From Candidatus Peregrinibacteria bacterium (GTDB taxonomy: Bacteria; Patescibacteriota; Gracilibacteria; UM-FILTER-43-11): DNA of 32,592 nt. The translations under genes were made by a program, and so were the position numbers. The notes beneath the pieces are model-generated. The model did no database searches. It saw only the letters and a list, made by a program, of their open reading frames with translations, and was not told the origin of the DNA. Shown here piece after piece: positions 6,044 to 26,949 of this stretch. The stretch spans positions 1 through 32,592 of the forward strand of contig JAFGCR010000019.1 of the NCBI GenBank assembly GCA_016932495.1, in the 5' to 3' direction. How positions within the stretch are numbered: the first letter of the stretch is position 1; the number at the start of each line of letters is the position of its first letter.

Positions 6044-6072
6044 ATTGTAAAACATAAATTATCTTTTGACAA
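6044..6072 (-). promoter_or_regulatory. Promoter of the 124-aa gene (shares -35 DNA with the divergent promoter)
   Basis: Minus strand: TTGTCA (6072-6067), a 17-bp spacer, TACAAT (6049-6044). Predicted start is near 6037, a leader of about 18 nt. The -35 lies on the same bases as the plus-strand TTGACA at 6066-6071. Confidence 0.6.
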
Positions 6073-6094
6073 ATTATTTTATTTTTTGTTTAAT
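6066..6094 (+). promoter_or_regulatory. Promoter of the TPR-RelA/SpoT-like gene
   Basis: Perfect TTGACA (6066-6071), a 17-bp spacer and TTTAAT (6089-6094, 5 of 6). Predicted start is near 6101, about 16 nt before the ATG at 6117. This placement decides the gene start: a TTG start at 6066 would lie on the -35 box. Confidence 0.7.
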
Positions 6095-6116
6095 AATAGC
6101 CTTAATTCATATCTAT

Positions 6117-8252
6117 ATGTCAGAACATGATTCTCCCCGCCACGAAGAGGCTGAGCGTTATTTTGAACGTGCCCAGATCATGCTCGAATCCAGGCTGGCC
6201 TCCCGCGAAGAAGCAATGGAAAGTGCATTAAATAACGCAAAAAAGGCGTTTGAACTTCATCCGGAAAACCCCAATTACTTTAATTTGTTTTTGCAGGTTA
6301 CGTTAGCAACCCGTCAGTCTATCTGCCGCTTGGGGGTTGATGCCGCACTTGATGCCGCTTTGCAGAATCCTGATTGCCGTGAAGTGGCTTTTTATATCAT
6401 TGCACATGTCCGTCTTCAGGTAATGGAAGTTATGGATAATGATTTTGATTTGCTTAAAAAGTTTTCTTTTGGCGGGGAAATCGATTTGCTGGAAAAATTG
6501 ATCACCATTGATCGTCGGCCTGATGCTTTGCACACTCTTTATCTTTTTTATAAATTGTCCGGTCGTCAGCATGAGGGCATGGCATTTTTTAAAGAAGCCG
6601 CTGAAACAAAGCCTGAAAATTACGGTTCTTATTACATTATGGCGTGCAAAAATCAGGAGCGTTATCAGGAGCTTATTGAATATTATGAGAAAAATGAAGC
6701 TGTTTTACTGCCCATGATGTCTGATGATCACAAAACAGTGGTTGCCATTGCTTACGAAAAGCGGGCAGCTGGTTTGGAGTGGCAGGACCGGATCCGGTTT
6801 GAAAACGAAGGGATGCCTGCCGACTCTCTGGATGATTATCGTAAATCTAAAGCTATTTATCAGCGTATCGCTCAACCTTACGAATCCTTGCTGACCGGCG
6901 GACAGCCTGTCACATCTGAGGGGTCGGTCGCCCTTATTAATTATGCCCAGATCCATGTGCTGGAGGCCCAATGTATTCAGCATTCGGCTGATGAGCAGAT
7001 CGACAAAACGACTGCCCTTGAGTTAAAGCGTAAAGCCCTCGCTATTTTAAATCCGCTCATTGAACGGATGAGCGCAATCGGTTATCCCGAATCTTCTGAT
7101 TTATATCGCCATTTACTGCTTGCCAAAACTCATGTATTGAGCGCTTCCTCGGATGTCCGCTTGGGAATAGAAGCGGTCGAACGAGCTATCGCTTTTGCTA
7201 AGGAATTGCAAGGCGATAAAGTTTTTCTAGCACTTTCGTTTGCCGATATTCTCCCCAATAATTTATCCGGTCTGCTGCACATTCGTAACCATTTACTCGG
7301 CAAGGAAACCGATCCTGAGCTGGAAGAGGAACTTCTGTGCCAGTCGCTTGTCGGGAATTGGAAAAATTTGCAAAGTTACGCTCCGTTGGTGCAGTTTTAC
7401 CTGAAAACAGGTGATAATGAAATGGCGCATCGGATTGAGCAAGTCTGCGCTTTGGTTCCCTTTCTGGAAAACCTGATTAAACTGGATAAATTCGGTCGTC
7501 AGGATTTTGACAATTGCGCTTTGGGTATTGCGCAGGCACCAGAAAGTCATGATGTTAAAACTTACAATGCCGCCCTTCAGAAAGTTTATGACTCCCTGCA
7601 GGTCACCCATGTTGCCCTAGAAGAACATTTGAAGCCTTTGCACGATGCTTTTGAGCCTTTCCGTGAGTCTTATAAGGCATATTTGGCAAAGATCGCTCCG
7701 GAAAATGCGCTGATTGATTCACGTCTGAAAATGACTTACTCCGTTATTTTGAAATTGCTTAAAGAAAGAAATGTGGCAGTTCCGGATGTAACTGATTTTT
7801 TGGCCTTTCGGGTTTTAACTGATACGGAAGAGGAAGCCCGGGTGCTTTATGAAAAAGTCCGCCTTGGAATGAGGAAAGATAGATCCATGAAAGAATGGAT
7901 CACTATTGATAAACCTACCAAAACCAATTATCGGTCTATGGATATTACCGGCACTATCCAGGGTGATGATATTCAATTGCAAGTCCAGATCCGCTCAAAA
8001 GCTATTGATGCGGAAATCAGCGCCGGTTTCGCGCACCATGGTTATTATAAGCGGGAGTCCGGGTGGAAACTGGAGGAGGCAATCAATAAAAATCCCATTC
8101 CTTATTTATGGCTCCTCAATGAGATCGTTCTTACTTTGGGCAATGCGTATCGTTTTATCCGTGATTCAGAAACACCCCTTACTTTGCATGAACTTCTTGA
8201 GATTTATCGCGATCCTCCTTTACCGCATTTGCCGGATCAGCCAAGCAGATGA
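6117..8252 (+). CDS. TPR-rich protein with C-terminal RelA/SpoT-like nucleotidyltransferase domain
   Basis: About 711 aa. The N-terminal 500 residues are helical with TPR-like units (for example KKAFELHPENPNYFNLF). Residues about 535-655 match the (p)ppGpp synthetase domain order: RLK..YS (R536, K538), TDFLAFRV (D560), K-rich then YRSMD (605-609), VQIRS (623-627) and GFAHHGYYK. Known synthetases make (p)ppGpp from ATP and GTP/GDP; some toxic relatives modify other substrates, including tRNA. Two expected residues differ: Gln622 replaces the Glu of E-V-Q-I-R-T, and Asp609 replaces the His of YxSxH. Activity is therefore uncertain. There is no HD hydrolase, TGS or ACT domain. The ATG at 6117 is chosen because a promoter covers the upstream frame. 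The 3' end overlaps the converging transporter gene by 16 bp. Confidence 0.8.
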   Translation: MSEHDSPRHEEAERYFERAQIMLESRLASREEAMESALNNAKKAFELHPENPNYFNLFLQVTLATRQSICRLGVDAALDAALQNPDCREVAFYIIAHVRLQVMEVMDNDFDLLKKFSFGGEIDLLEKLITIDRRPDALHTLYLFYKLSGRQHEGMAFFKEAAETKPENYGSYYIMACKNQERYQELIEYYEKNEAVLLPMMSDDHKTVVAIAYEKRAAGLEWQDRIRFENEGMPADSLDDYRKSKAIYQRIAQPYESLLTGGQPVTSEGSVALINYAQIHVLEAQCIQHSADEQIDKTTALELKRKALAILNPLIERMSAIGYPESSDLYRHLLLAKTHVLSASSDVRLGIEAVERAIAFAKELQGDKVFLALSFADILPNNLSGLLHIRNHLLGKETDPELEEELLCQSLVGNWKNLQSYAPLVQFYLKTGDNEMAHRIEQVCALVPFLENLIKLDKFGRQDFDNCALGIAQAPESHDVKTYNAALQKVYDSLQVTHVALEEHLKPLHDAFEPFRESYKAYLAKIAPENALIDSRLKMTYSVILKLLKERNVAVPDVTDFLAFRVLTDTEEEARVLYEKVRLGMRKDRSMKEWITIDKPTKTNYRSMDITGTIQGDDIQLQVQIRSKAIDAEISAGFAHHGYYKRESGWKLEEAINKNPIPYLWLLNEIVLTLGNAYRFIRDSETPLTLHELLEIYRDPPLPHLPDQPSR

Positions 8253-13448: not shown

Positions 13449-14626
13449 TATTTCTCATCTTCTGAACTTGCTGGCGGCAGACAGTCATCCGGTTCGTTTC
13501 CCAGACAGGCATCCTCATCCCGCCGGACCGGCAGGAAGGGGAGCTGGAGCACTTCGTATGAGGTGAATTCATCGGGCATGACCACCGGTTCCACATCGTT
13601 GATGTTGCTGACCTTGTAGGAATAGTAAACCGAGAACTGGTCAATTGGATCGAGGTCTTTCAGGATCAGTTTGATGCGGAAAAAATCAAAAATTCCATGA
13701 ACGTCATCGGCGTGGAACATGGATGACAGATAAAATTTATTGAGCATTGACCATAGCTCCGTTTTATCGTCGTCCGTCACGTTTTCGCCCAGCCGCTCAG
13801 CAGCCGAAACAATAAAATTCACTATTTTTCTTTTATTGAGCGTGAAGTTAGTGAACCCTTTCTGCGGGCCATCCACCACGGTCCTTGCGGTAAAAAAGTC
13901 AGTATCAAAAAATTCATCTATCAACTCCTGCACAACGGCCGACATCTCTTCATCCGTCGCCTGTTCTTCAGCCACACCGCTCAGCAATTCTTTATAAGTT
14001 TCTTTCATCCCTTTTTCTTTTAATTCTTCCCGTATGCCTTCCTGTTCCAGGGCTGATTGCAGGGGGGCCGGCAGTCCTTCCGTGTTTGCCGCCCCGATAA
14101 TGTCGGCCGGGAAATAAAACCAGATATACCGTACCGATTCTAATTTTTCTTTCAGCTCTTTTTTAAATTCCAGATAGTTTTCATCTTCGCCTTCAGCTAT
14201 GTTATCCGCTATCAGATTAAACGTGTTTAAACGGGCGTAAATTCCATCACCCGCTATATTGATCAGTTCGGCCCACAGATTGATGTTTATGCGGTCGAAT
14301 GGCCGGTCGGCCCCCCCTATATCCATAAATGCGTGCCCTCGTATAAAGGAATACATATCCGCTTCGTAAGGAGATCGGTTTACGACATCCGTATTTATTT
14401 TCAGTCGGTATTCCCCCGTCATTTTTATCGGCCCACCCCCCAAACCCCGTTCCAGCGCGAAATCACCCACCAGGTTCTGGTTTAGCCGGTAACTTTCCAA
14501 TGCCTGCATATTTTCCGTTGACGCAAAGAAGGTCAGCGGGTCAGAATTAAATCCTTTCGCGGGGAACGCCATGACCGATACCGCGCCTGTTAATACGATC
14601 AATAAAAAAGCAAATAAACGTTTCAT
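13445..14626 (-). CDS. Secreted hypothetical protein
   Basis: A 393-aa protein with a clear signal peptide: KR, then a hydrophobic stretch to about residue 20 (VMA/FPAKG). The mature part is acidic and mixed alpha/beta, with repeated segments about internal helices (EFKKELKEKLESV, YKELLSGVAEEQ, ELIDEFFDTDFF). It ends in a Cys-containing, Pro/Asp/Glu-rich tail (ACLGNEPDDCLPPASS). There is no lipobox, because the only Cys residues are C-terminal. I recognise no family. It is divergent from the penicillin-binding protein gene with only 52 bp between the starts, so a role at the cell surface and shared control are plausible but unproven. Confidence 0.78.
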   Translation of the reverse strand: MKRLFAFLLIVLTGAVSVMAFPAKGFNSDPLTFFASTENMQALESYRLNQNLVGDFALERGLGGGPIKMTGEYRLKINTDVVNRSPYEADMYSFIRGHAFMDIGGADRPFDRININLWAELINIAGDGIYARLNTFNLIADNIAEGEDENYLEFKKELKEKLESVRYIWFYFPADIIGAANTEGLPAPLQSALEQEGIREELKEKGMKETYKELLSGVAEEQATDEEMSAVVQELIDEFFDTDFFTARTVVDGPQKGFTNFTLNKRKIVNFIVSAAERLGENVTDDDKTELWSMLNKFYLSSMFHADDVHGIFDFFRIKLILKDLDPIDQFSVYYSYKVSNINDVEPVVMPDEFTSYEVLQLPFLPVRRDEDACLGNEPDDCLPPASSEDEKY

Positions 14627-14678
14627 AATATAATGAGTTAAATTTAAGAAAGCAGTTTACCATATTTTAATACAGCAC

Positions 14679-16748
14679 ATGAACCGATTTGTTACCAGCC
14701 TTATTATTCTCATCGTCCTCGTTAACGTTTTTTTGCTGACGTTCTTTTTTTATCCGCTTCCTAGAGCGCTCCGTTCGTTGCAACCTGAGCCTACCCTTAA
14801 ATTATATGACCGCCATGATGAACTCTTGTACGAGGTCCTGAGCGAAGAAGCAGGCAGGCAGTCCTTTATTGCGCTTTCTGATATGCCGGATGATTTGAAA
14901 AATGCTTTTTTGTCTATCGAAGATAAAGATTTCTACGAACATTCCGGGATTGACCTCAAAGCGATTCTGCGTGCCATCTGGCAGAATATGTCGGCGGGTG
15001 AGATCGTTTCCGGCGGCAGTACCATCACCCAGCAAGTCGTCCGTAACCTGATCGGCGTGAACCAAAAGCGCACGTTCCGCCAGAAGATCAAAGAGAGCAT
15101 TATGGCGCTTAAAATCGATAAATTTTTCGACAAGGACCAGATTTTTGAAGTCTACCTGAATTCCATTTACTTCGGCGGGCTGGCGTATGGTGTGGAATCC
15201 GCTTCGTGGCAGTATTTCAATAAATCAGCTTCCAATCTCGACTTGGCGGAATCCGCTTTTTTGGCCGGTTTACCCCAGGCACCCAACCGTTATTATCCGT
15301 TTGAACATTTTGAGCTGGCAAAGGAGCGTCAGAAAGCGGTGCTTTCCGCCATACTTAAAAACGGCGCTATCAGCGAGGAGGATTATAAACAGGCCGTTGC
15401 TGAAAATCTTAAGCTCCAGCGGGGCGCTTTTGCCAAAAAAGCTCCTCATTTTGTCGATTATGTGTTATCCAATTGTGGACCCGATTGCGGATCCAGCGGT
15501 GGACCCAATGGTGGTCACAAAATTATTACGACGCTGGATTTGGGAATGCAGGAGCGGGTCGAAAATATCATAGAATCCGACCTCACCTTTCTGTCCAAAT
15601 TTAATATTGAAAATGCGGCCGTGGTTATTTTAGATGTTAAAACTGGCGATATTTTAACTATGGTCGGTAGTGCGGATTACGATGATCCTACGATTCAGGG
15701 TGCTGTGAACATCACTACATCTCTCCGTCAGCCGGGTTCCAGCATCAAGCCGCTGGTGTACGCGATGGCGTTTGAACAGGGTTGGTTAACCGATACGGTG
15801 GTTTCCGATGAACCGGTCCGTTTTGAAACGGAAGACGGCCTGCCGTACAGCCCCCAGAATTTTGACCTGGTTTACCACGGAGAGGTCACGTTAGCGGAAG
15901 CACTGGCCCAGTCGCTTAATATTCCGGCGGTTCAGGTGATGGATTTTGTCGGCGTCGCTTCGTTTTTGTCGCGGGTACGGGATTTCGGGATCACTACCCT
16001 GGATCAGCCCGCTGAACATTATGGCCTGTCGCTCGCTTTGGGGAGCGGGGAAGTCCGCTTACTGGAACTTACGAATGCTTATTCCGTGTTTGCCAATGAA
16101 GGCCAGCGCGCCATTATCCGTTTTCTTTTGTCCGATGAGCCTGACGACTTAGAATCAGTCATCCGTCCGGAAACCGCTCAGGCCATTTCCGCTATTTTGT
16201 CCAGCAATGATCTGCGTATGCCGGCGTTTGGCGAAGAAAATCCTTTAAACCTGCCCTTTCCGGTGGCCGCCAAAACCGGTACCACCCGTAATTTCCGCGA
16301 TAACTGGACACTTGGTTACACCGATGATTACGCGGTCGGGGTGTGGGTTGGCAACGCGCGTGGCGAGGTGATGGAAGGGGTGTCGGGCATTACCGGCGCG
16401 GGCCCGATTTTTTATAAGGTGATGATGATGTTGAATGAGATGACAGGCACCAAATTGACCGTCCAACCATTGCAGATCGATGTGACATCGCGGGCTGAAG
16501 AGCCCGCTCTGCCTGAGGAGTTCCGCATCATCACCCCCTTCGCCAACGACGTGTTCCTTTTCGATCCCACCAAACCATCCGAATTTCAGAAAATCAAACT
16601 CGAAGCGTCCGCTTCGGCTGAATGGTTTGTGGATGGTCAACGTGTCGGCGAAGGATTGTCCGTTTTATGGCCGCTTGAAAGAGGTGAACATCAGATCAGG
16701 TCCGTTGCTGATCAGGAGGAGCGGGTGGTTGAGATTGTGGTGCGGTGA
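14679..16748 (+). CDS. pbpC: Bifunctional peptidoglycan glycosyltransferase/transpeptidase, PBP1C-like
   Basis: A 689-aa class A penicillin-binding protein anchored by one N-terminal TM segment (residues 8-28). The GT51 domain shows IEDKDFYEHSGIDL (catalytic Glu81), GGSTITQQVVRNL and the KIKE then EVYLNSIYFGG motifs. The transpeptidase domain has S354-x-x-K357 (SSIK), S412-L-N414 and K532-T-G. The C-terminal 80 residues (IITPFANDVFLF, WFVDGQRVGEGLSVLWPLERG) resemble the BiPBP_C domain, which points to PBP1C rather than PBP1A. A short Gly/Cys-rich insert (NCGPDCGSSGGPNGGHK) links the two catalytic domains. It polymerises lipid II and crosslinks stem peptides outside the membrane. The 3' end overlaps the converging 92-aa gene by 53 bp. 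Confidence 0.95.
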   Translation: MNRFVTSLIILIVLVNVFLLTFFFYPLPRALRSLQPEPTLKLYDRHDELLYEVLSEEAGRQSFIALSDMPDDLKNAFLSIEDKDFYEHSGIDLKAILRAIWQNMSAGEIVSGGSTITQQVVRNLIGVNQKRTFRQKIKESIMALKIDKFFDKDQIFEVYLNSIYFGGLAYGVESASWQYFNKSASNLDLAESAFLAGLPQAPNRYYPFEHFELAKERQKAVLSAILKNGAISEEDYKQAVAENLKLQRGAFAKKAPHFVDYVLSNCGPDCGSSGGPNGGHKIITTLDLGMQERVENIIESDLTFLSKFNIENAAVVILDVKTGDILTMVGSADYDDPTIQGAVNITTSLRQPGSSIKPLVYAMAFEQGWLTDTVVSDEPVRFETEDGLPYSPQNFDLVYHGEVTLAEALAQSLNIPAVQVMDFVGVASFLSRVRDFGITTLDQPAEHYGLSLALGSGEVRLLELTNAYSVFANEGQRAIIRFLLSDEPDDLESVIRPETAQAISAILSSNDLRMPAFGEENPLNLPFPVAAKTGTTRNFRDNWTLGYTDDYAVGVWVGNARGEVMEGVSGITGAGPIFYKVMMMLNEMTGTKLTVQPLQIDVTSRAEEPALPEEFRIITPFANDVFLFDPTKPSEFQKIKLEASASAEWFVDGQRVGEGLSVLWPLERGEHQIRSVADQEERVVEIVVR

Positions 16749-16974
16749 ATAATTCCTTAAACCATTTTCGGAATTCTTCAAATGCTTCCGGGTCTCTCCA
16801 GTCAAAATCGGAGCGGTCGTAGGTTTGTTGTAATTTGCCGATAGGATATTGAGGTGGAGTTGGCATATACCAGCCTTTGACCAGAACAAATTCCAAAAAC
16901 TCTCTGAAGAGATATTTACATGCTTCCGCGTGCTCGAGATACTCATTTGTCTGTCCTTCTACATATTCTGGCAT
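16696..16974 (-). CDS. Hypothetical 92-aa protein
   Basis: Unknown small soluble protein rich in aromatic and acidic residues (YLFREFLEFVLVKGWYMPTP, then FDWRDPEAFEEFRKWFKELF), ending in a Pro/Gln-rich tail. The residue composition looks like a genuine folded protein. Its ATG lies inside the 3' end of the upstream gene (16-bp overlap), which suggests translational coupling. It runs 53 bp into the converging PBP gene. No known domain is seen. Confidence 0.62.
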   Translation of the reverse strand: MPEYVEGQTNEYLEHAEACKYLFREFLEFVLVKGWYMPTPPQYPIGKLQQTYDRSDFDWRDPEAFEEFRKWFKELFTAPQSQPPAPPDQQRT

Positions 16975-17204
16975 GCCTTTAAAAAAGAGTCGTTCTTAAA
17001 TCTTTCTATTAATTCGTGTGAGTGTTTAGCATCCGTTAATCGGCCATTTAGTTTATGCTGAAAGATGATCAGTTTTGCCTTTTCTGACACTTTTGGATCT
17101 TCCTTTGAGTTTGCTTTGGACATTAATTTTATCATTCTGTCTCTTTCCGGCAATGTTTCTAATGTCTCTGTTTCTCCTTTAGTCCGTGATGGTCTTTCGG
17201 TCAT
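16959..17204 (-). CDS. Hypothetical 81-aa protein
   Basis: Small, basic, Lys/Glu-rich helical protein (MTERPSRTKGETETL, later ERFKNDSFLKACQNM) of unknown function. The ATG at 17204 is preferred; an in-frame TTG at 17234 would fall in a leader hairpin. A promoter with a perfect TATAAT lies upstream. It overlaps the next gene by 16 bp. Confidence 0.6.
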   Translation of the reverse strand: MTERPSRTKGETETLETLPERDRMIKLMSKANSKEDPKVSEKAKLIIFQHKLNGRLTDAKHSHELIERFKNDSFLKACQNM

Positions 17205-17225
17205 ATATAGGTGCCTATGCGTGTG

Positions 17226-17246
17226 GGGCCCCAATTCAATTGGGGG
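17226..17246. repeat. GC-flanked palindrome in the leader of the small minus-strand genes
   Basis: CCCCAATT, one C, then AATTGGGG, preceded by GGGG. On the minus strand it would form a hairpin at the very 5' end of the mRNA started by the promoter at 17252-17280. Confidence 0.6.
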
Positions 17247-17251
17247 GTCAG

Positions 17252-17280
17252 ATTATAAGGGGTAGAAAAGAAATAAACAA
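17252..17280 (-). promoter_or_regulatory. Promoter for the 81-aa/92-aa gene pair
   Basis: Minus strand: TTGTTT (17280-17275), 17-bp spacer, perfect TATAAT (17257-17252). Predicted start is about 17246, a leader of about 42 nt. Confidence 0.5.
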
Positions 17281-17340
17281 AGAAAAGAAAAATATTATAA
17301 AATAAAATATATTTTTGTCCATTTGATTTTATTCGCCAAT

Positions 17341-17368
17341 TTGACTTCATTGCCACTTTGTCTATAAT
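17341..17368 (+). promoter_or_regulatory. Strong promoter of the rpoB-ssb-rpoC cluster
   Basis: TTGACT (17341-17346), 16-bp spacer, perfect TATAAT (17363-17368). Predicted start is about 17375, giving a long leader of about 222 nt before rpoB, unlike the short leaders elsewhere in the window. Confidence 0.7.
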
Positions 17369-17374
17369 ATTCTG

Positions 17375-17536
17375 GCTATCAGTGTCCCCCCGAGTGAGTT
17401 GAGATTGAAGGCACTTGCATACATTTTTGTTATCAGCAAGCCACATTACTCAATTGTTTATGAGGGTGTCCAAAATCAGATTTTAAACTGTTTTACAGAA
17501 TTGGCTTTCCGCATTTAGCCAATTCTTTTTATTTTA
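17375..17536 (+). promoter_or_regulatory. rpoB leader with upstream fold and intrinsic terminator (attenuator)
   Basis: About 160 nt of likely transcript before a terminator. The first part can form a long hairpin: TTGAG near 17400 with CTCAA near 17450, and inside it GGC..CTTGC with GCAAGCC. An 8-codon reading frame, MRVSKIRF (17460-17486), ends 10 nt before the terminator stem. The layout suggests attenuation, or a separate small RNA. It does not match any riboswitch I can recognise. Confidence 0.5.
17497..17536 (+). terminator. Intrinsic terminator in the rpoB leader
   Basis: AGAATTGGCT (17497-17506), a 10-nt loop, AGCCAATTCT (17517-17526), a perfect 10-bp stem running straight into TTTTTATTTT. 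It sits 61 bp before the rpoB ATG and downstream of its promoter. Confidence 0.8.
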
Positions 17537-17596
17537 TTGTTTTGGAAATCCCGATAAGCAATTCCTTACCTTATTTATTAGCTTCATTTAAATCTT

Positions 17597-20500
17597 ATGG
17601 CTAAAAAAAGCGCTGCCTTTAAATTGTCCGTTGAGCCCACCAAAGTGTTAAATGGGCGTCATTATTTTACGGAAACCCTGGACACATTCCGTCTCCCCCC
17701 ACTGATCGAGGTCCAGCTCAATTCTTACCAATGGTTTTTGAGCGACGGGCTGAAGGAGCTTTTAGAAGAAGTGTCTCCCATTACGGATTTTTCCGGCAAA
17801 AAAATGGAACTGCATTTCCTCAATCATACGCTGGATAAGCCCAAACATGACGCCATGACCGCAAAACGGAAGAACCTTTCTTATGAGGCGGCTCTAAAAG
17901 CTCATGTTCAGCTTATTAATAAGGAAAGCGGTGAAATCAAGGAACAGGATGTGTTTCTAGGTTCTGTTCCTCTAATGACCGAACGCGGCACTTTTATTAT
18001 TAACGGGATCGAGCGCGTGGTCGTGAACCAGATTGTCCGGAGCCCCGGTGTTTTTTATTCCCGCAATGCGACTGCTCCTCAATTTTTTAATGCCAAGATC
18101 ATTCCTAAGCGCGGTGCCTGGCTTGAGATCGAAACCGATAAGAAAGGTCTTATCACCGTCAAGATCGACCGCAAGCGTAAGATCTACATCACTCAGCTGC
18201 TGCGTATTTTCGGTTACGAGAAAAATTCTGATATCCACAATCTGTTCAAAGATGTAAATGTGGATATCAATAACGATTATATCCAGAACACCCTTGAAAA
18301 AGACAATGCCCATACGGTCGCGGACGCCTATCAAAGCATTTACCGCAAGATCCGCCCCGGCGATCTGGCGACCCCTGAAAACGCCAAACAGCTTATCGAC
18401 GCGCTGTTTTTTGATTTCAAGCGGTATGACATGGGTGTTGTAGCCCGTTACAAACTCAACAAGCGTTTTGGCACGACCCGCGGCATCAAAATGAAAGACC
18501 GCGTGTTTCAGGTCGAAGATTTTATCCACATCCTCAAACGCCTTATCGAACTCAATAATGGGGAAGGGCAGGAAGATGACATTGATCATCTAAGCAATCG
18601 CCGCATTCGTTCTGTTGGCGAACTGGTGCAGAATAAATTCCGTGTCGGCCTTATGCGTACTGACCGTATATCCAAAGACCGCATGACGGTCATGGACCTG
18701 GAAACCGTTACACCGACCCAGCTGATCAATTGCCGGCCGATTACCGCAGCGCTCCGTGAATTTTTTGCCAGCTCCCAGCTGTCCCAATTCATGGACCAGA
18801 CCAACCCGTTGGCGGAACTGGCCCACAAGCGTCGTATTTCCGCGATGGGTCCGGGCGGTCTGTCGCGCGAGCGCGCTTCTTTCGACGTTCGCGATGTGCA
18901 TACTTCCCATTATGGCCGCCTTTGTCCGATTGCCACTCCGGAAGGTCCGAATATTGGTCTCGTGGTTCACTTGGCCTCTTATGCACGTGTGAATGAATAC
19001 GGTTTTATTGAAACTCCTTACCGCGCTATTGAACATTATGTGGAACCCAAGGTTGAAAGCCTTGTCGGCCGGATTATTGATGAAGAAGTGAGAGACGGCC
19101 GGAAAGTGATCGCCAAAATCGAAGACAAGCTGACGAAAGAACAGGCTTCCAAAGTGGCCAAGATCAAAAAATCGATTAAAACACCGCCCCCGCACGATAT
19201 CGACGCTTCATTGGTCCGGCCGCTGGTCGGCCAGATCGCGGCCCAGGATATTAAAATCGGCCGCAGGTTATTGGTTACAAAAGGCGACGTGATCGATGAG
19301 GTCAAAGCCCGCATTATCGTGAATGAAAAAAGCCTGGATAAGATTAAAATCCAGGAGCGCCCGCGTAATTTAACAAAAGTCCGGGCCTATGTCGGTGAAG
19401 ATACCCAATACTATGACGCGGACGCTGAAAAATATTTTATTATTGCCGAAGCGAACGTGAAAATGGATGAGAAAGGGCAATTCACCAACACGCGTGTGGC
19501 TGCGCGGCGCAGCGGCGATCCGGCGCTGGTCCATGTGCGTGATCTTACTCATATCGACATCGCCCCCAAGCAGATCATTTCAGTCACCACTTCCCTGATC
19601 CCCTTTCTGGAGCACGACGATAACACACGCGCGTCCATGGGTTCAAACATGCAGCGCCAGGCTGTTTCCCTGATCCGTCCTCATCGTCCGATTGTCGGGA
19701 CCGGTATGGAAGCGCTTACCGCTGAAAGTTCCGGTCAGGCAGTGGTTGCCCGCACGAAAGGGGCTGTAAAGGAAACAGATGCTTCTCAGGTGGTGGTGAT
19801 GTATGAGGACGGGAAGAAAGAAACATATCCTATTCTTAATTTTATGCGCTCCAACCAGGCCACGGCCATCCATATGCGTCCGGCGGTCATCAAGGGGCAG
19901 AAAGTTAAAAAAGGCGATGTGCTGATCAATGGGGCGGCGGTGGACGAAGGGGAGCTGGCTCTTGGTCAGAACTTACTCGTCGCTTACATGACATGGGGTG
20001 GGTACAACTACGAGGACGCGGTGATCCTTTCTGACCGCGTGGCCAAAAAAGGACTGTATGATTCGGTGCATATCGAAGTGTTTACCGTGGATGTCCGCGA
20101 CACTAAACTGGGCCCTGAAATCGTCACGCGGGATATTCCCAACGTCGGAGAAGCCCGCTTAAAAGATCTGGATGTGGACGGCATTGTCCGCATTGGAGCC
20201 ACGGTGCGTGAAGGCGACATCCTCGTCGGTAAGATCACGCCGAAAGGGGAAACAGAGCTTACCGCAGAAGAACGTCTGCTTCAGGCGATTTTCGGCGATA
20301 AGGCCAAAGACGTGAAAGACACATCCCTGCGCCTGCCGGGCGGGGAGGGCGGTAAGGTAGTGGATGTCCAGATTTTTAACCGCCAGCAGGGTGATGAACT
20401 GCCCACGGGCGTTATCCGTCAGATCAAAGTTTATGTTGCTCAGACCCGCAAGGTCCAGGTCGGTGATAAAATGGCCGGCCGCCATGGGAACAAGGGTGTG

Positions 20501-21433
20501 ATTTCCAAAATCGTCCCGCAGGAGGATATGCCCTTTTTACCAGATGGCACACCTGTCGATATTATTCTAAATCCCCTTGGCGTTTCCAGCCGTATGAATA
20601 TCGGTCAGATTCTGGAAACCCATTTGGGCTGGGCGGCGGATAAGCTCGGCATCCATGTAGCCACACCCGCGCTGAATGGCCTGGGCATGGATATCATTGA
20701 ACAGCTGATGAAAGATGCTGACCTGCCTCAGGATGGCAAAATCCAGCTCTACGATGGGCGGACCGGTGAACCGTTTTATTACAAAACTACCGTCGGAAAA
20801 GTCTATATGCTTAAACTTCTGCATCTGGTCGAAGACAAATTGCACGCCAGAAGTGTCGGGCCTTATTCATTGGTCACCCAGCAGCCGCTTGGCGGTAAAG
20901 CCCAGCATGGCGGACAGCGTTTTGGGGAAATGGAAGTGTGGGCCCTGGAAGCTTACGGGGCCGCTCATACTTTGCAAGAGATGCTTACCATTAAGTCCGA
21001 TGATGTGATTGGCCGCGCCCGCGCGTATGAATCGATTGTTAAGGGCGAATCCATCCGTACCCCCAGCGTGCCGGAAAGTTTCAATGTGCTGGTCAAAGAA
21101 TTAAAAAGTCTTTGTCTCGATGTTTCTCTTACCAAAGTCCACGGAGATGAAGTGGTGGGGGAGGTGGATCTGGAAGATGTCATTGAAAATGAGGAAATCG
21201 ACCTCATTCCTTCGGATGACAAGATCAGCGAGCTTGATGATACCAAGGAAAGAGAGGAAGCGATTGAATCAGAACTGGAGGGCGAAAATATCGGCGAACA
21301 TGATGTGCTCGAAGAAATGGAAGAGGCTTTGATGGAAGAAGAAGGACCGGAAGGGCACATATCCCGCGGAGAAATCGAGCACGAAGAAGAAGTGATTGAA
21401 AAAGCAGAGAAGAAATTAAATAAGAAGAAATAA
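17597..21433 (+). CDS. rpoB: DNA-directed RNA polymerase beta subunit
   Basis: A 1278-aa core RNA polymerase subunit. Recognised by the rifampicin-pocket region (SSQLSQFMDQTNPLAELAHK, then RRISAMGPGGLSRER, near residues 390-425), RLCPIATPEGPNIGL, YNYEDAVILSDR, KGETELTAEERLL, GDKMAGRHGNKGVIS and the C-terminal clamp segment QQPLGGKAQHGGQRFGEME. The rifampicin pocket is of the common sensitive type by eye. After the conserved end, about 95 residues form a strongly acidic Glu/Asp tail that ends in Lys. It starts at an ATG without Shine-Dalgarno, 61 bp after a terminator hairpin. It is followed by ssb rather than rpoC. Confidence 0.99.
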   Translation: MAKKSAAFKLSVEPTKVLNGRHYFTETLDTFRLPPLIEVQLNSYQWFLSDGLKELLEEVSPITDFSGKKMELHFLNHTLDKPKHDAMTAKRKNLSYEAALKAHVQLINKESGEIKEQDVFLGSVPLMTERGTFIINGIERVVVNQIVRSPGVFYSRNATAPQFFNAKIIPKRGAWLEIETDKKGLITVKIDRKRKIYITQLLRIFGYEKNSDIHNLFKDVNVDINNDYIQNTLEKDNAHTVADAYQSIYRKIRPGDLATPENAKQLIDALFFDFKRYDMGVVARYKLNKRFGTTRGIKMKDRVFQVEDFIHILKRLIELNNGEGQEDDIDHLSNRRIRSVGELVQNKFRVGLMRTDRISKDRMTVMDLETVTPTQLINCRPITAALREFFASSQLSQFMDQTNPLAELAHKRRISAMGPGGLSRERASFDVRDVHTSHYGRLCPIATPEGPNIGLVVHLASYARVNEYGFIETPYRAIEHYVEPKVESLVGRIIDEEVRDGRKVIAKIEDKLTKEQASKVAKIKKSIKTPPPHDIDASLVRPLVGQIAAQDIKIGRRLLVTKGDVIDEVKARIIVNEKSLDKIKIQERPRNLTKVRAYVGEDTQYYDADAEKYFIIAEANVKMDEKGQFTNTRVAARRSGDPALVHVRDLTHIDIAPKQIISVTTSLIPFLEHDDNTRASMGSNMQRQAVSLIRPHRPIVGTGMEALTAESSGQAVVARTKGAVKETDASQVVVMYEDGKKETYPILNFMRSNQATAIHMRPAVIKGQKVKKGDVLINGAAVDEGELALGQNLLVAYMTWGGYNYEDAVILSDRVAKKGLYDSVHIEVFTVDVRDTKLGPEIVTRDIPNVGEARLKDLDVDGIVRIGATVREGDILVGKITPKGETELTAEERLLQAIFGDKAKDVKDTSLRLPGGEGGKVVDVQIFNRQQGDELPTGVIRQIKVYVAQTRKVQVGDKMAGRHGNKGVISKIVPQEDMPFLPDGTPVDIILNPLGVSSRMNIGQILETHLGWAADKLGIHVATPALNGLGMDIIEQLMKDADLPQDGKIQLYDGRTGEPFYYKTTVGKVYMLKLLHLVEDKLHARSVGPYSLVTQQPLGGKAQHGGQRFGEMEVWALEAYGAAHTLQEMLTIKSDDVIGRARAYESIVKGESIRTPSVPESFNVLVKELKSLCLDVSLTKVHGDEVVGEVDLEDVIENEEIDLIPSDDKISELDDTKEREEAIESELEGENIGEHDVLEEMEEALMEEEGPEGHISRGEIEHEEEVIEKAEKKLNKKK

Positions 21434-21578: not shown

Positions 21579-22025
21579 ATGAGAAGCGTTAATAAAGTCA
21601 TCCTGGTCGGTAATATCACGCGGGATCCGGAGATCAAACAGACCACCACAGGCCAGTCTATTGTTACCTTTGGTCTGGCCACGAACCGCGAATGGGTTAC
21701 GAGTAAGGGTGAGAAGCAATCTCTGGCCGAATACCATAATTTGGTGGCCTGGGGAAAACTCGCGGAGATATGCAAGCAATATCTTAAAAAGGGTAAATTG
21801 ATTTACGTGGAAGGATACCTTAAGACCCGCTCATGGGATTCGCCGGAGGGGGTGAAGATCTTTAAGACCGAAGTCGTGATCTATGACATGATCATGCTCG
21901 AAAAACGCCCGCGGGATGAAGAGGGCATCGACAGCCCCGATGATTTTATTCCCGGCGAAAATGATGCCTTTGATCCCTTGGCCGATATCGGAGGAGAGAT
22001 TTCTGACAAAAATACTTCCAAATAA
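21579..22025 (+). CDS. ssb: Single-stranded DNA-binding protein
   Basis: A 148-aa OB-fold SSB that coats ssDNA in replication, repair and recombination. The N-terminal 110 residues match the family: VNKVILVGNITRDPEI, TTTGQSIVTFGLATNREW, EYHNLVAWGKLAEICKQYLKKGKLIYVEG and KTEVVIYDMIML. The C-terminal tail is acidic (DDFIPGENDAFDPLAD) but ends in SDKNTSK, without the usual terminal DDDIPF-type tip that binds partner proteins. The position between rpoB and rpoC is unusual. The upstream spacer is AT-rich (TTTTCAATTTTTAATTTTT) with no Shine-Dalgarno. Confidence 0.96.
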   Translation: MRSVNKVILVGNITRDPEIKQTTTGQSIVTFGLATNREWVTSKGEKQSLAEYHNLVAWGKLAEICKQYLKKGKLIYVEGYLKTRSWDSPEGVKIFKTEVVIYDMIMLEKRPRDEEGIDSPDDFIPGENDAFDPLADIGGEISDKNTSK

Positions 22026-22063
22026 AAATAATAATTTTCAATTTTTAATCTTCAATAATTAAT

Positions 22064-25000
22064 ATGCATAAGACGCAAAAAAAGCACGATGAGTTTGACG
22101 CCATCACCTTATCCATTGCCAGTCCGGACAGCATTCTGGAATGGTCGTACGGCGAGGTGACCAAGCCGGAAACCATCAATTACCGGACCCAAAAACCTGA
22201 ACGGGACGGTCTTTTCTGCGAGAAGATTTTTGGCCCGACCAAAAACTGGGAGTGTTATTGCGGCAAATACAAGCGTATCCGCTATAAAGGGGTCGTGTGC
22301 GAAAAATGCGGCGTGGAAGTCACCCGCTCCATTGTCCGCCGTGAGCGGATGGGGCATATCAGCCTGGCTGTCCCCGTCACCCATATCTGGTTTCTCCGCT
22401 CCACACCCAGCCGTATCGGCCTACTTCTCGACCTGCCCATCAAGGCCATCGAGCAAGTGATCTATTTTGCTTCTTATATTGTTATCAGTGTTGACGAAGA
22501 AGCTAAACAGCAGGCGCTTGACCAGCTTGATAAGGATTATCAATCTTATAAAAAGCAGATCCAGGATGAATTCAAGCAGAAAGAAGCTGAATTTAAAGTG
22601 AAAAAACGCGATAAATCCGCCAAAGCCAATAAAGGCGATACAAATGAGGAAATTCCCGTGAGCGATCTGCTGAAAATCGAAGACGCCTTTGCGCAGAAGA
22701 TCGAAGAATTGAACCAACAGCACACTCAGGCGAAAGCAGAACTGGAATCCCTGAGTACCGGTAAGGTCATCGGTGAGCTGGAATACCGGGAGCTTTCTAT
22801 GAAATTCGGCCACATTTTCCGTGCGGGCACCGGCGCCGAATCTATCCGCCAGATCATGGAAGCGCTTGAGCTGGAAACCTATATTAAAAAATTACAGGAA
22901 GAATATGTTCAGAGCACCGGACAGCGCCAGAAGAAACTCAGCAAACGGATCCGTTTTGCCAATGCGCTGAGCCGCGCGGGTATCCGGCCGGAATGGATGG
23001 TGATCACCCAACTACCCGTCATCCCGCCCGACCTCCGGCCTATGGTCCAGCTGGACGGGGGCCGTTTCGCGGCCAGCGATCTTAACGACCTCTACCGCCG
23101 TGTGATCAACCGCAATAACCGTCTGAAACGTCTGATGGCCATCGGCGCCCCCGAAGTCATCTGCCGCAATGAAAAACGTATGCTGCAGGAAGCGGTCGAT
23201 GTCCTTTTTAACAACCAGCCCCGTGGCGGCAAGAGTGCTTTCATGGCCGGGGACAAGCGGAAACTCCGTTCTTTATCCGATATGCTTAAAGGAAAGCAGG
23301 GCCGTTTCCGTCAGAATCTTTTAGGAAAACGTGTCGATTATTCCGGACGTTCCGTGATCGTGGTCGGGCCTGAGCTTAGGCTGGATCAATGCGGGCTCCC
23401 CAAAGAAATGGCCCTGAAACTGTTCAAGCCGTTTGTAATCGGCCAATTGATCCGGGAAGAACACGCCCACAATGTCAAAGGCGCTGAACGGCTGATCGAA
23501 TCCGGCAAAAAAGAAGTATGGGATATCCTTGAGCGGGAAACACAGAACCGTTACGTGCTCCTCAACCGGGCACCCACCCTGCACCGTCTGGGCATCCAGG
23601 CCTTCCAGCCGGTCCTCATTGAAGGGAAGGCCATCCAGATACATCCTCTGGTCTGCGCCGCGTTTAACGCCGACTTTGATGGTGACCAGATGGCGGTCCA
23701 TCTCCCCTTATCCGAAAGTTCTCAAAAGGAATCCAAAGAACTGATGCTGGCGGTCACCAACCTTTTAAAACCGTCTGCCGGCGAACCGATCATTACTCCT
23801 TCTCAGGATATGGTGCTGGGCATTTATTATCTCACCAAATCCCTCAAAGGAAAGACGGGAGAAGGCATGCTGTTTTCCAGCATCAATGAGGCAGTCAATG
23901 CATACCGCATGGGTTATGTGGACCTGCACGCGCTTATTAAAACACGCGTTAAGGGCGAAATCATTGAAACCAGTGTCGGCCGCATGATCTTCAATACCTT
24001 TCTGCCCGAAGCGCTCCAGTATGTAAACGAGACGATGGGCAAAGGCGGTTTGAAAAAGCTTCTGGCCGACTGTCTGGAACATGTTGGCCCGGAAGCCACC
24101 GCTAAGATGGCGGATGAATTTAAGCGGATCGGTTTTAAATTCGCCACCAAATCCGGTTTATCGATTGCGGCTGCCGATATGCTTGCCCCCGATGAACGCG
24201 AGGAACTGGTCGAAGAAGCGTCTGAAAAAGTGAAAAAAATCAATAATCAGTACTGGAAAGGCTGGATCACCGAAGAAGAACGGTACAACCACGCCATCCG
24301 TATCTGGTCTTTCCTTAAAAACGATATCACCAACCGGATGATCGAGACGTTTGAAAAAATGCCCGAGAACCACATCCATTACATGATCGACTCCGGAGCC
24401 CGCGGTAACTGGGGCCAGATCACCCAGCTGTGCGGTATGAAAGGGCTGGTGGCTAATCCGAGCGGCAAGACCATTGAACTGCCGATTAAATCCAATCTGA
24501 AAGGCGGCTTCTCTATTCTGGAATACTTCATCGCCACCCATGGCGGACGTAAAGGAAAATCCGACACGGCGCTTAAAACCGCTGAAGCCGGTTATCTGAC
24601 CCGCCGTTTGGTGGACGCGGTCCAGGATGTGGTGATCAAAGAAGTGGATTGCGGCTCGGAGCATGAGCATGTCATCACGCGTGCGGAAAGCAAGCAGATC
24701 GGTGAAGGTTTTGAAAAACGCATTTATGGCCGGACACTGATGGGGCCGGTCGTCCATCCTAAAACCGGTGAAGTCCTGGCGAAGAAAGGGCATGAGATCG
24801 ACCATGAAGTCGTCCGCAAGATCAAGGAATTCGGCATCAACGAAGTCCGTGTCCGCGGTATTATGACCTGCCGCACCGAAAACGGCATCTGCCAGAAATG
24901 TTACGGCCAGGACCTTGGCACCAATAAAACGGTGGAGTTGGGCACTGCGGTCGGTATCATTGCCGCGCAGAGTATCGGTGAGCCTGGCACCCAGCTGACC

Positions 25001-25954
25001 ATGCGCACCTTCCACATGGGCGGCGTGGCGGAAGGGTCGGATATCACCCAGGGTCTTACCCGCGTGGAGGAACTTTTTGAAGCACGCCCCCCCCGCGCCA
25101 ACTCGGTCCTTTCTGATGTCGATGGACGTGTCCGCATTAAACAGAAAAAAGACCAGATCGAAGTCACGATCACCGGCGAAGAGCTCGCCACCGATACCCA
25201 CCTGATTCCTTTCGGTTTTGAAGTGATGGTCAAAAAAGGCGATAAAGTAAAAGCCAAACAGGTCATCGCCCGTTCAAAAGCTGATAAAAATACTGTCAAA
25301 GCCTCTGCCGACGGCAGGGTTCTGAAGATCGAAGGAGGATTTATCCACATCAAACATCAGGAAAAGCAAGTCCGTACGCATGCCTTTGGCCACCGGGAAC
25401 GCCTTTTGGTGTCCAATAACGACCTTGTTGCCAAGGGAAGCCCCCTGAACCGCGGCCATCTCAACCTTCAGGAACTCCTGCACCTGACTGATGTCTATAA
25501 AGTGCAGCGGTATATCATGACAGAAGTCCAGCACATTTACGCCTCACAGGGGCAGACCATCAATGACAAGCATATTGAGATCATTGTCAAACAGATGTTT
25601 TCCAAGGTGCGCGTGCTGGATCCGGGAGGAAGCGATCTTCTGGCCGGCGAGATCATCAGCACGGCTAAATTTGAACGCCTGAATCAGGAGCTCAGGAAAA
25701 AGAAAAAACCCGAAGTCATTATCGAGCATCTGCTGTTGGGTATTTCACGCGTGGCTATTATGACAGACAGCTGGCTTTCCGCGGCTTCGTTCCAGGAAAC
25801 CATCCGTGTTTTGGTCGAAGCGTCCACCACTAAAAAAGTGGATTTGCTGAAAGGCTTGAAAGAAAATGTGATTATTGGTAAATTAATCCCCGCTGGCCGC
25901 GTCTTTCAGGACCATTTAGCGGAAGTGGAAGAGGCTAAAACAAAAAAGAAATAA
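22064..25954 (+). CDS. rpoC: DNA-directed RNA polymerase beta' subunit
   Basis: A 1296-aa catalytic subunit. The N-terminal zinc site is CYCGKYKRIRYKGVVCEKCG; the active-site magnesium loop is NADFDGDQM (D537, D539, D541). The bridge-helix/trigger region includes GGRKGKSDTALKTAEAGYLT, and the second zinc cluster is CRTENGICQKCYG, followed by GIIAAQSIGEPGTQLTMRTFH. A Lys/Glu-rich coiled-coil insertion (about residues 145-230) sits between the zinc region and the clamp. No frameshift is seen. It begins 38 bp after ssb in an AT-rich spacer and is followed 62 bp later by rpsL. Confidence 0.99.
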   Translation: MHKTQKKHDEFDAITLSIASPDSILEWSYGEVTKPETINYRTQKPERDGLFCEKIFGPTKNWECYCGKYKRIRYKGVVCEKCGVEVTRSIVRRERMGHISLAVPVTHIWFLRSTPSRIGLLLDLPIKAIEQVIYFASYIVISVDEEAKQQALDQLDKDYQSYKKQIQDEFKQKEAEFKVKKRDKSAKANKGDTNEEIPVSDLLKIEDAFAQKIEELNQQHTQAKAELESLSTGKVIGELEYRELSMKFGHIFRAGTGAESIRQIMEALELETYIKKLQEEYVQSTGQRQKKLSKRIRFANALSRAGIRPEWMVITQLPVIPPDLRPMVQLDGGRFAASDLNDLYRRVINRNNRLKRLMAIGAPEVICRNEKRMLQEAVDVLFNNQPRGGKSAFMAGDKRKLRSLSDMLKGKQGRFRQNLLGKRVDYSGRSVIVVGPELRLDQCGLPKEMALKLFKPFVIGQLIREEHAHNVKGAERLIESGKKEVWDILERETQNRYVLLNRAPTLHRLGIQAFQPVLIEGKAIQIHPLVCAAFNADFDGDQMAVHLPLSESSQKESKELMLAVTNLLKPSAGEPIITPSQDMVLGIYYLTKSLKGKTGEGMLFSSINEAVNAYRMGYVDLHALIKTRVKGEIIETSVGRMIFNTFLPEALQYVNETMGKGGLKKLLADCLEHVGPEATAKMADEFKRIGFKFATKSGLSIAAADMLAPDEREELVEEASEKVKKINNQYWKGWITEEERYNHAIRIWSFLKNDITNRMIETFEKMPENHIHYMIDSGARGNWGQITQLCGMKGLVANPSGKTIELPIKSNLKGGFSILEYFIATHGGRKGKSDTALKTAEAGYLTRRLVDAVQDVVIKEVDCGSEHEHVITRAESKQIGEGFEKRIYGRTLMGPVVHPKTGEVLAKKGHEIDHEVVRKIKEFGINEVRVRGIMTCRTENGICQKCYGQDLGTNKTVELGTAVGIIAAQSIGEPGTQLTMRTFHMGGVAEGSDITQGLTRVEELFEARPPRANSVLSDVDGRVRIKQKKDQIEVTITGEELATDTHLIPFGFEVMVKKGDKVKAKQVIARSKADKNTVKASADGRVLKIEGGFIHIKHQEKQVRTHAFGHRERLLVSNNDLVAKGSPLNRGHLNLQELLHLTDVYKVQRYIMTEVQHIYASQGQTINDKHIEIIVKQMFSKVRVLDPGGSDLLAGEIISTAKFERLNQELRKKKKPEVIIEHLLLGISRVAIMTDSWLSAASFQETIRVLVEASTTKKVDLLKGLKENVIIGKLIPAGRVFQDHLAEVEEAKTKKK

Positions 25955-26016
25955 TACCCAATATCTAATATCTGATATCTTTTTAAATCCTAAATTCTAA
26001 TCTCTAATTTACCGTT

Positions 26017-26433
26017 ATGCCAACCATTAACCAATTGATCAAAAAGAGCAGACGCAGTCCTAAAAAGAAGAGTAAGTCTCCCGCTCTGCAATACACGTTT
26101 AATTCTCTCCGGAACCGTGAAGTCGGCCTGGATAAAGGCGCCCCGCAGAAGCGCGGGGTATGCGTTAAGGTGACTACCCGTACGCCTAAAAAGCCGAATT
26201 CCGCTTTGCGTAAAGTGGCCAGGGTCCGCTTAACGAACGGAGAAGAAGTGACCGCTTATATTATGGGAGAAGGCCACAACCTTCAGGAACATTCTGTGGT
26301 CCTGGTGCAAGGCGGGCGCGTGAAAGACCTTCCTGGAGTACGTTATCATATTATCCGCGGGCCTCTGGATACCCAGGGCGTCCAGGACCGCAAGCAGGGC
26401 CGCAGCCGTTACGGCGCCAAGAAGCCCAAGTAA
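26017..26433 (+). CDS. rpsL: 30S ribosomal protein S12
   Basis: A 138-aa decoding-centre protein. It shows [37 protein letters not shown] (the Lys whose mutations give streptomycin resistance is K58 or K59 here, wild type), [13 protein letters not shown] and [16 protein letters not shown]. It carries the 14-residue N-terminal insertion seen in Firmicutes-type S12 and absent from E. coli. It follows rpoC, as in many bacteria. The start is ATG, with no Shine-Dalgarno. Confidence 0.99.
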
Positions 26434-26448
26434 AATTTTCAATTTTTC

Positions 26449-26466
26449 CCTGAATCAAGTTCGGGG
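26449..26466. repeat. CCTGA...TCGGG palindromic repeat upstream of rpsG
   Basis: CCTGAATCAAGTTCGGGG, a near copy of the element at 10651-10667. It sits between two AT-rich ATTTTCAATT words in the rpsL-rpsG spacer. Confidence 0.55.
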
Positions 26467-26490
26467 TTATACTTTAATTTTCAATTCATT

Positions 26491-26949
26491 ATGGTCCAGA
26501 AAAAAACGAAGCACATTCCGGCTGATTCATCCGAATTACAGGAAAAATTCATTAACTGCATGATGACCAGAGGCAAGAAATCGGTGGCGCGCCATATTTT
26601 TTCCGACGCCATGCGGATTTTACACGAACAGGGCAAAAGCAATCCGGCAGCCATTTTCCAGAAAGCTCTGGATAATGTTAAACCCACTACCGAAGTCCGG
26701 GCGAGGCGGGTGGGCGGGTCGGTTTATCAGATTCCTGTCGAGGTAAGCCCCAAACGCCAGATGGCCCTCAGTATCCGCTGGATCATCCAGGCGTGCCGTA
26801 CGAAAAAAGGCAAACCTATGGCTGACAAACTCGCCCAGGAATTCATCGATGCCAGCAACGAAACGGGGGTGGCCTTTAAAAAACGCGAAGATGTCCACAG
26901 GATGGCCGCCGCCAACAAAGCGTTTGCCCATTTTGCCCGGTATAGATAA
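26491..26949 (+). CDS. rpsG: 30S ribosomal protein S7
   Basis: A 152-aa 16S rRNA-binding protein that nucleates 30S head assembly. It has the conserved MMTRGKKSVARHI, NVKPTTEVRARRVGGSVYQI, PVEVSPKRQMALSIRW and KREDVHRMAAANKAFAHFARY. fusA and tuf, which often follow in the str operon, are absent; a structured GC-rich spacer and then an SLH gene follow instead. Confidence 0.98.
   Translation: MVQKKTKHIPADSSELQEKFINCMMTRGKKSVARHIFSDAMRILHEQGKSNPAAIFQKALDNVKPTTEVRARRVGGSVYQIPVEVSPKRQMALSIRWIIQACRTKKGKPMADKLAQEFIDASNETGVAFKKREDVHRMAAANKAFAHFARYR

Follow-up and report, generated by a model that had tools for sequence, protein, structure and literature searches.

A candidate cis-regulatory leader RNA upstream of rpoB in a Patescibacteria class, possibly gating leader-peptide attenuation in one sub-lineage

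The 5' region of rpoB in the stretch of DNA analysed here (32,592 nucleotides, contig C33 of a 1.175-Mb genome, hereafter the window) bears on how reduced, uncultured bacteria of this kind set the level of their RNA polymerase. An earlier note, made from the sequence alone, had proposed that this region is an attenuator-like leader from which most transcripts could stop before rpoB unless antitermination occurs. The reading favoured here, with a probability of roughly 0.45, is that the leader of the rpoB mRNA forms a structured RNA with a cis-regulatory role, acting as a pseudoknot switch and, in the window's lineage, gating leader-peptide attenuation. Such a leader may set how much RNA polymerase these small-genome bacteria make.

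The leader sits directly in the rpoB 5' region, with no gene between it and the start codon, in the following setting:

17341 to 17368, plus strand: promoter TTGACT-16-TATAAT, 11/12 consensus matches
17597 to 21433, plus strand: rpoB, ATG at 17597, six RNA_pol_Rpb2 Pfam domains
21579 to 22025, plus strand: ssb (Pfam)
22064 to 25954, plus strand: rpoC (Pfam)
26017 to 26433, plus strand: rpsL (Pfam)
26491 to 26949, plus strand: rpsG (Pfam)

The near-consensus promoter and the rpoB start described in the earlier note were thus recovered. The promoter match taken alone is weak evidence, since 16 promoter-like sites occurred on both strands of 14000-19000 against 7.2 +/- 3.0 in shuffles; a promoter of the TTGAC ... 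TATAAT type was also seen by eye at the same place in 13/13 related leaders with upstream sequence, one of them with TACAAT at -10. Judging from strand and short gaps, ssb, rpoC, rpsL and rpsG (21579-26949) likely belong to one operon with rpoB; the single-strand binding protein gene ssb is inserted between rpoB and rpoC. The gene upstream of the leader encodes a penicillin-binding protein (14679-16748), and neither rplJ nor rplL was present among the 26 window ORFs scanned with Pfam, in line with the absence previously noted.

Between promoter and gene lies a candidate site of termination:

17497 to 17543, plus strand: intrinsic terminator, stem 17497-17506/17517-17526 followed by a T-rich tail

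The stem (AGAATTGGCT/AGCCAATTCT) is a perfect 10 bp, as had been claimed, with a loop of 10 and the tail TTTTATTTTATTGTTTT, and has a folding energy of -12.2 kcal/mol; perfect stems of 9 bp or more followed by a T-rich tail arose in 10/5000 dinucleotide shuffles of 17369-17596. A simple terminator scan with loops limited to 8 did not report this stem. In a genome of the same genus (G001), whose leader is 91% identical to the window's over 135 nt, the stem base is kept with a different hairpin in the loop (-15.2 kcal/mol), and G010 (locus L034) carries yet another version at the same place (-14.1 kcal/mol); in G016 (locus L035), inspection by eye showed no clear terminator. The order of promoter, structured leader, intrinsic terminator and rpoB is therefore found in three genomes of two genera, and it is reasonably probable that the window leader is an attenuator of rpoB. 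This part of the earlier proposal stood; it had not foreseen that the conserved structure is an element of roughly the first 80 nt, that this element recurs across the class, as a rule with no terminator behind it, and that its apparent site of action in most relatives is the start codon of rpoB.

The capacity of the roughly 120-nt leader to fold, which the earlier note had mentioned, is in itself of little informative value: folded whole, 17374-17540 was no better than shuffles (z -0.99; 31/200 at least as good), so the evidence for structure is comparative. It centres on two features:

17381 to 17415, plus strand: P1 hairpin, arms 17381-17386 and 17410-17415 (AGTGTC/GGCACT), covarying among relatives
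17392 to 17403, plus strand: conserved loop core GAGTGAGTTGAG, class consensus GRWUGWGUURNG, from a weight matrix and counts

Regions upstream of rpoB were obtained by RpoB searches from 15/18 genomes of the window's family, together with 80 kept from 173 named relatives, which are MAGs, most of them carrying the label Peregrinibacteria, Peribacteria, Gracilibacteria or Patescibacteria. A weight matrix built from the 15 family loops, which made no demand for TG.GT, found the same loop before rpoB well beyond the family; the consensus counts used a pattern demanding TG.GT, and those positions are invariant by construction. The window's P1 folds on its own at -4.0 kcal/mol. Among relatives the stem letters vary freely (GTGTC/GACAC, GTCC/GGAC, GCGC/GCGC, GCTATC/GATAGC, CACAGC/GCTGTG, AAGACC/GGTCTT, CCGTGT/ACACGG). 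When sites were picked by loop sequence only (core score of at least 4 in 71/81 loci, giving 60 representatives), own flanks out-paired permuted flanks in all 5000 permutations, with only 15/60 loci placing their own partner in the top 5% and with kinship among loci only partly removed by the 75% identity filter. When 12 Peribacteria hairpins were aligned with MAFFT, paired cells made up 94%, a level reached by 1/500 shuffles, and the covariation score was equalled by 2/500; covariation is modest, two-sided changes affecting 3 of 7 pairs (matched by 126/500 shuffles) and further pair types being matched by 297/500. Compensatory changes, whose absence from homologues would have spoken against the earlier proposal, are present in relatives, and P1 is very probably a real RNA structure conserved at rpoB.

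Many families of this class-level Patescibacteria group carry the P1/loop element ahead of rpoB, and on inspection it was accepted in 0/20 genomes of other classes. A loop score trained on the window's family alone passed 14/15 family loci, the miss (L038) being cut at a contig end, and outside the family 43/66 other named loci, 11/20 further class genomes and 3/20 genomes of other classes; the core was missing on inspection in the latter three and in three of the 11 further class passes (L157, L158, L169). Among the 20 further class genomes the element is clear in L159 and L160 (family f8), L165 and L166 (f14), L168 (f22), L172 and L173 (f15) and L176 (f16), and likely by eye, below the score, in L167 (f22) and L174 (f2), with nothing clear in f3, f9, f10, f13, f17 and f24 and a doubtful case in f7. 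A covariance model built from the 12 Peribacteria hairpins (R1) has a narrow reach, matching 24/81 sources at E<0.05, of which 12 are its training set and none lies in the window's family. In 192 genomes of the phylum it gave seven matches at E<=0.05: five are class members of family f5, all upstream of rpoB by coordinates, and the other two are weak (E 0.014 and 0.05), in other classes and away from rpoB. Loop-like pattern matches inspected within the window's family numbered 38 outside rpoB and 8 at rpoB, and a stem scoring at least 11 accompanied 9/38 of the former versus 8/8 of the latter. The nine stem-bearing sites lie inside open frames of at least 164 aa (137 in the case of one short stretch) that have a coding appearance. 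We therefore regard rpoB as the one clear location, although one stem by itself does not decide the matter.

The loop also has a partner downstream, in a pairing termed P2:

17397 to 17403, plus strand: P2 5' strand AGTTGAG, inside the P1 loop, complementary to 17449-17455
17449 to 17455, plus strand: P2 3' strand CTCAATT, complementary to 17397-17403

The window duplex has -7.2 kcal/mol. Apart from the Peribacteria-type loci, the loop shows complementarity to a stretch immediately preceding the AUG of rpoB, and loop and partner have undergone compensatory changes (GATGGGT/ACCCATC, GTTAAGGAAC/GTTCCTTGAC, GAGTTAAG/CTTAACTC, GTTGTGGA/TCCACAAC, TGAGGAT/ATCCTCA, GATTGTGTT/AACACAATC). A strong partner is present in 19/39 non-Peribacteria-type representatives and in 16 of them ends 7-12 nt before the AUG; this count of 16/39 was reached by 0/5000 permutations (maximum 11), shuffled loops giving on average 2.15 representatives, and the P2 cut (15), the 7-12 range and the exclusion, by loop pattern, of 16 Peribacteria-type loci were chosen after viewing earlier results. 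Across 55 representatives the summed P2 score was reached by 1/5000 permutations, with only 14/55 loci placing their own partner in the top 5%, and in 31 short leaders, a few of whose cores or starts are mis-assigned, it was equalled by 0/2000. Several rpoB start codons are uncertain, that of L041 having been corrected by hand and those of L112 and others left as they were, and the identity filter leaves some kinship among the loci here too. The 16 Peribacteria-type representatives have no consistent loop partner. Because their leaders are long, the window, G010 and G016 stand outside the P2 statistics, and the evidence for P2 comes from other genomes.

The position of the partner at the ribosome entry site points to control of translation initiation by a pseudoknot. 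Outside the Peribacteria-type loci, the loop and the pre-AUG segment probably form a pseudoknot that blocks initiation, and we regard it as likely that P2 both forms and acts on initiation there. In the window and G010 the loop has some complementarity to the region just before rpoB too (scores 13.5 and 17.0), so direct action at rpoB is conceivable in these genomes as well.

These pairings bear on two other accounts of the conserved sequence. It could be a DNA element, the loop serving as operator for a DNA-binding regulator and the pairings being incidental, as its strong conservation close downstream of the -10 box might suggest; an operator, however, predicts neither stem letters that vary while pairing is kept nor a loop that covaries with a distant start-codon segment, and we give this account hardly any credence. 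It is also very improbable that the terminated RNA of about 155 nt is a trans-acting small RNA, with rpoB fed by read-through or another promoter: promoter and strong terminator do flank a conserved RNA in three genomes, but most element-bearing members of the class have, by eye, no terminator between element and rpoB, and the loop partner is located at the rpoB start codon.

In the window's own sub-lineage the partner lies elsewhere. The loop GTTGAG and partner CTCAA are found in the window, G001, G010 and G016, as against GTTGTG and CACAA in several other family members, and in all four the partner is distant from rpoB. It is followed instead by a short reading frame:

17460 to 17486, plus strand: putative leader ORF MRVSKIRF* (8 codons), kept in G001, variant in G010

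This ORF is identical in G001 and reads MGVSKIRI* in G010, while its start codon is gone in G016; ORF and terminator co-occur in the window, G001 and G010, and both are missing, the terminator by eye, in G016. The P2 partner ends 4 nt before the ORF start in the window, which is shorter than usual, and the stop codon precedes the terminator stem by 10 nt in the window and G001 and by 7 nt in G010. The P2 switch thus still appears to be positioned ahead of a start codon, which here would belong to the putative leader peptide rather than to rpoB. According to one study of E. coli, a terminator with a stop codon only a few bp away can be repressed by the ribosome, full termination returning only beyond 27 nt (PMC4824070). 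The same study states that, unless polymerase pauses, it is rarely caught by a ribosome in the first 100 bp, which counts against a leader-peptide step (PMC4824070). The ORF has 8 codons only, and almost all of its conservation could be explained by that of the RNA. That the window leader works through a leader peptide is accordingly a tentative proposal, to which we would give somewhat less than even odds.

The antitermination invoked by the earlier note could also come about by other means. An attenuator made of RNA alone or bound by a protein would leave the ORF untranslated: P1 and P2 would refold, or a protein would bind, and an antiterminator would form or the terminator be exposed. A terminator and a structured leader are indeed present, and the P1 arm sequence GTGTC is repeated, by eye, at 17466-17470 in the window and G001, making an alternative to P1 possible; yet for pairing with the terminator 5' arm the leader was found to offer nothing that shuffles do not match (141/300 as good), which leaves a pure RNA antiterminator unsupported. 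We consider this explanation unlikely. For antitermination, the short ORF would provide a ribosome-dependent route instead.

The favoured pseudoknot switch would operate as follows. Pairing of the P1 loop with the segment before the rpoB AUG would keep ribosomes from entering and put translation in an OFF state, which a signal would either stabilise or reverse; as the element is found clearly only at rpoB, this signal may be autogenous, coming from RNA polymerase subunits or from a factor linked to their abundance. In the window's lineage this switch would stand before the 8-codon ORF. With the pseudoknot open, a ribosome would translate the ORF and hinder the terminator hairpin, so that polymerase would read into rpoB; with the pseudoknot closed, transcription would end near 17535. 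A translational switch would in this way have been re-used as a transcription attenuator and, if this is true, the lineage illustrates such a conversion by a tiny ORF and a terminator placed behind the switch. A fuller version, in which RNA polymerase or a level-reporting factor binds the P1 loop of a class-wide Patescibacteria rpoB leader RNA and controls the loop/rpoB-start pairing, the ORF and terminator having been added in one sub-lineage, is rather unlikely as a whole. Autogenous control of rpoBC is described for E. coli in PMC10931766. A leader RNA at rpoB over much of the class, with a covarying stem and loop-start pairing, provides a testable handle.

Since rpsL and rpsG follow closely behind rpoC, a ribosomal-protein leader was also weighed, in which S12, S7 or L10(L12)4 would repress the rpoB-rpoC-rpsL-rpsG unit by binding to the P1 loop. 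Leader RNAs control many ribosomal protein operons, according to PMC10931766, but the leader matches no Rfam ribosomal leader model and its loop is not similar to the part of the genome's own 16S rRNA held in the assembly (model positions 874-1520); this explanation appears quite improbable. At gathering score, Rfam gave no leader match in the window or in 34 loci, ribosomal leaders such as L10_leader included, and the only match in the window was a tRNA. Permissive matches (DLEU2_5, ctRNA_pT181, CopA and others) were at chance level and were rejected, and 6S RNA, considered from the overall shape, was dropped for want of an Rfam match. Mimicry of rRNA, with the loop resembling 16S or 23S segments, was discarded too, the best core scores being low in a comparison that covered only 16S model positions 874-1520. 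On contig C50 (L197) of the window's genome (G000) the 16S is matched only at these positions and no 23S gene was found in the assembly, whose rRNA is incomplete.

The nearest known kind of RNA is Lacto-rpoB (RF01709), which to our knowledge always precedes rpoB. Both are structured RNAs in the leader of rpoB, but Lacto-rpoB is confined to Lactobacillales whereas the present element belongs to a Patescibacteria class. Its model matched 0/60 class genomes, the window genome included, with the positive control Lactococcus lactis found, and was not among the permissive Rfam matches of 17200-17620. Lacto-rpoB is presented as a structured RNA of the rpoB 5' UTR with a proposed cis-regulatory role in PMC2864571, and is also treated in PMC7724050 and PMC6064168.

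Three further systems offer comparisons. In E. coli, the attenuator of the beta operon is located between rplL and rpoB; the present locus has in common with it a terminator before rpoB and, as proposed, feedback on RNA polymerase synthesis, but differs in having its own promoter, in lacking rplJL and in carrying a hairpin/pseudoknot leader that occurs class-wide. In attenuators of the pyrBI kind, a short ORF ahead of the gene has its stop codon a short way from an intrinsic terminator, as here; the ORF at 17460-17486 differs in being itself pseudoknot-gated, as proposed, in having no run of special codons and in that no pause site was identified. The preQ1, SAM-II and S4/S15 leaders are translational pseudoknot switches in which, as proposed for the present element, the loop of a hairpin pairs with a strand of the same mRNA close to where the ribosome enters; sequence and gene are different here, and no Rfam model matched. 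With regard to attenuators based on intrinsic terminators in general, the order promoter, leader, terminator and gene was found and an exclusive antiterminator pairing was not; with regard to pseudoknot switches, covariation of loop and pre-start segment was found in 16/39 non-Peribacteria-type representatives, but not in Peribacteria-type loci. The rpoB leader would therefore work like known kinds, but appears to be a member of no described family tested. PMC4824070 mentions pyrBI as a leader-peptide attenuator. Among the matches listed in the open-access PMC literature, to which this search was confined, none described an rpoB leader for Peregrinibacteria or Gracilibacteria, and a term search of the text of PMC7247131 gave no mention of rpoB, Peregrinibacteria or Gracilibacteria.

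Some minor observations concern the coding frames and surroundings of these loci. In many class members (L067, L072, L074 and others) an open frame extends from the element across the customary start of rpoB, which suggests an N-terminal extension of RpoB, lysine-rich in L067. RpoB matches in several families of the class (f10, f14 and f22; L096 and L123, for example) contain many in-frame TGA codons, as would be expected for recoded TGA. In the window, 16665-17234 on the minus strand holds two short ORFs that differ in frame (16959-17234 and 16696-16974) and have no Pfam match, perhaps a frameshifted remnant, and a promoter-like site lies near them on the same strand at 17321-17294. The palindromic GGGGCCCCAATTCAATTGGGG at 17227-17250, upstream of the promoter, also precedes rpoB in G001 and G010 and may be a dispersed repeat. 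Farther upstream, 6066-8252 encodes a 728-aa ORF with a RelA/SpoT domain close to its C-terminus.
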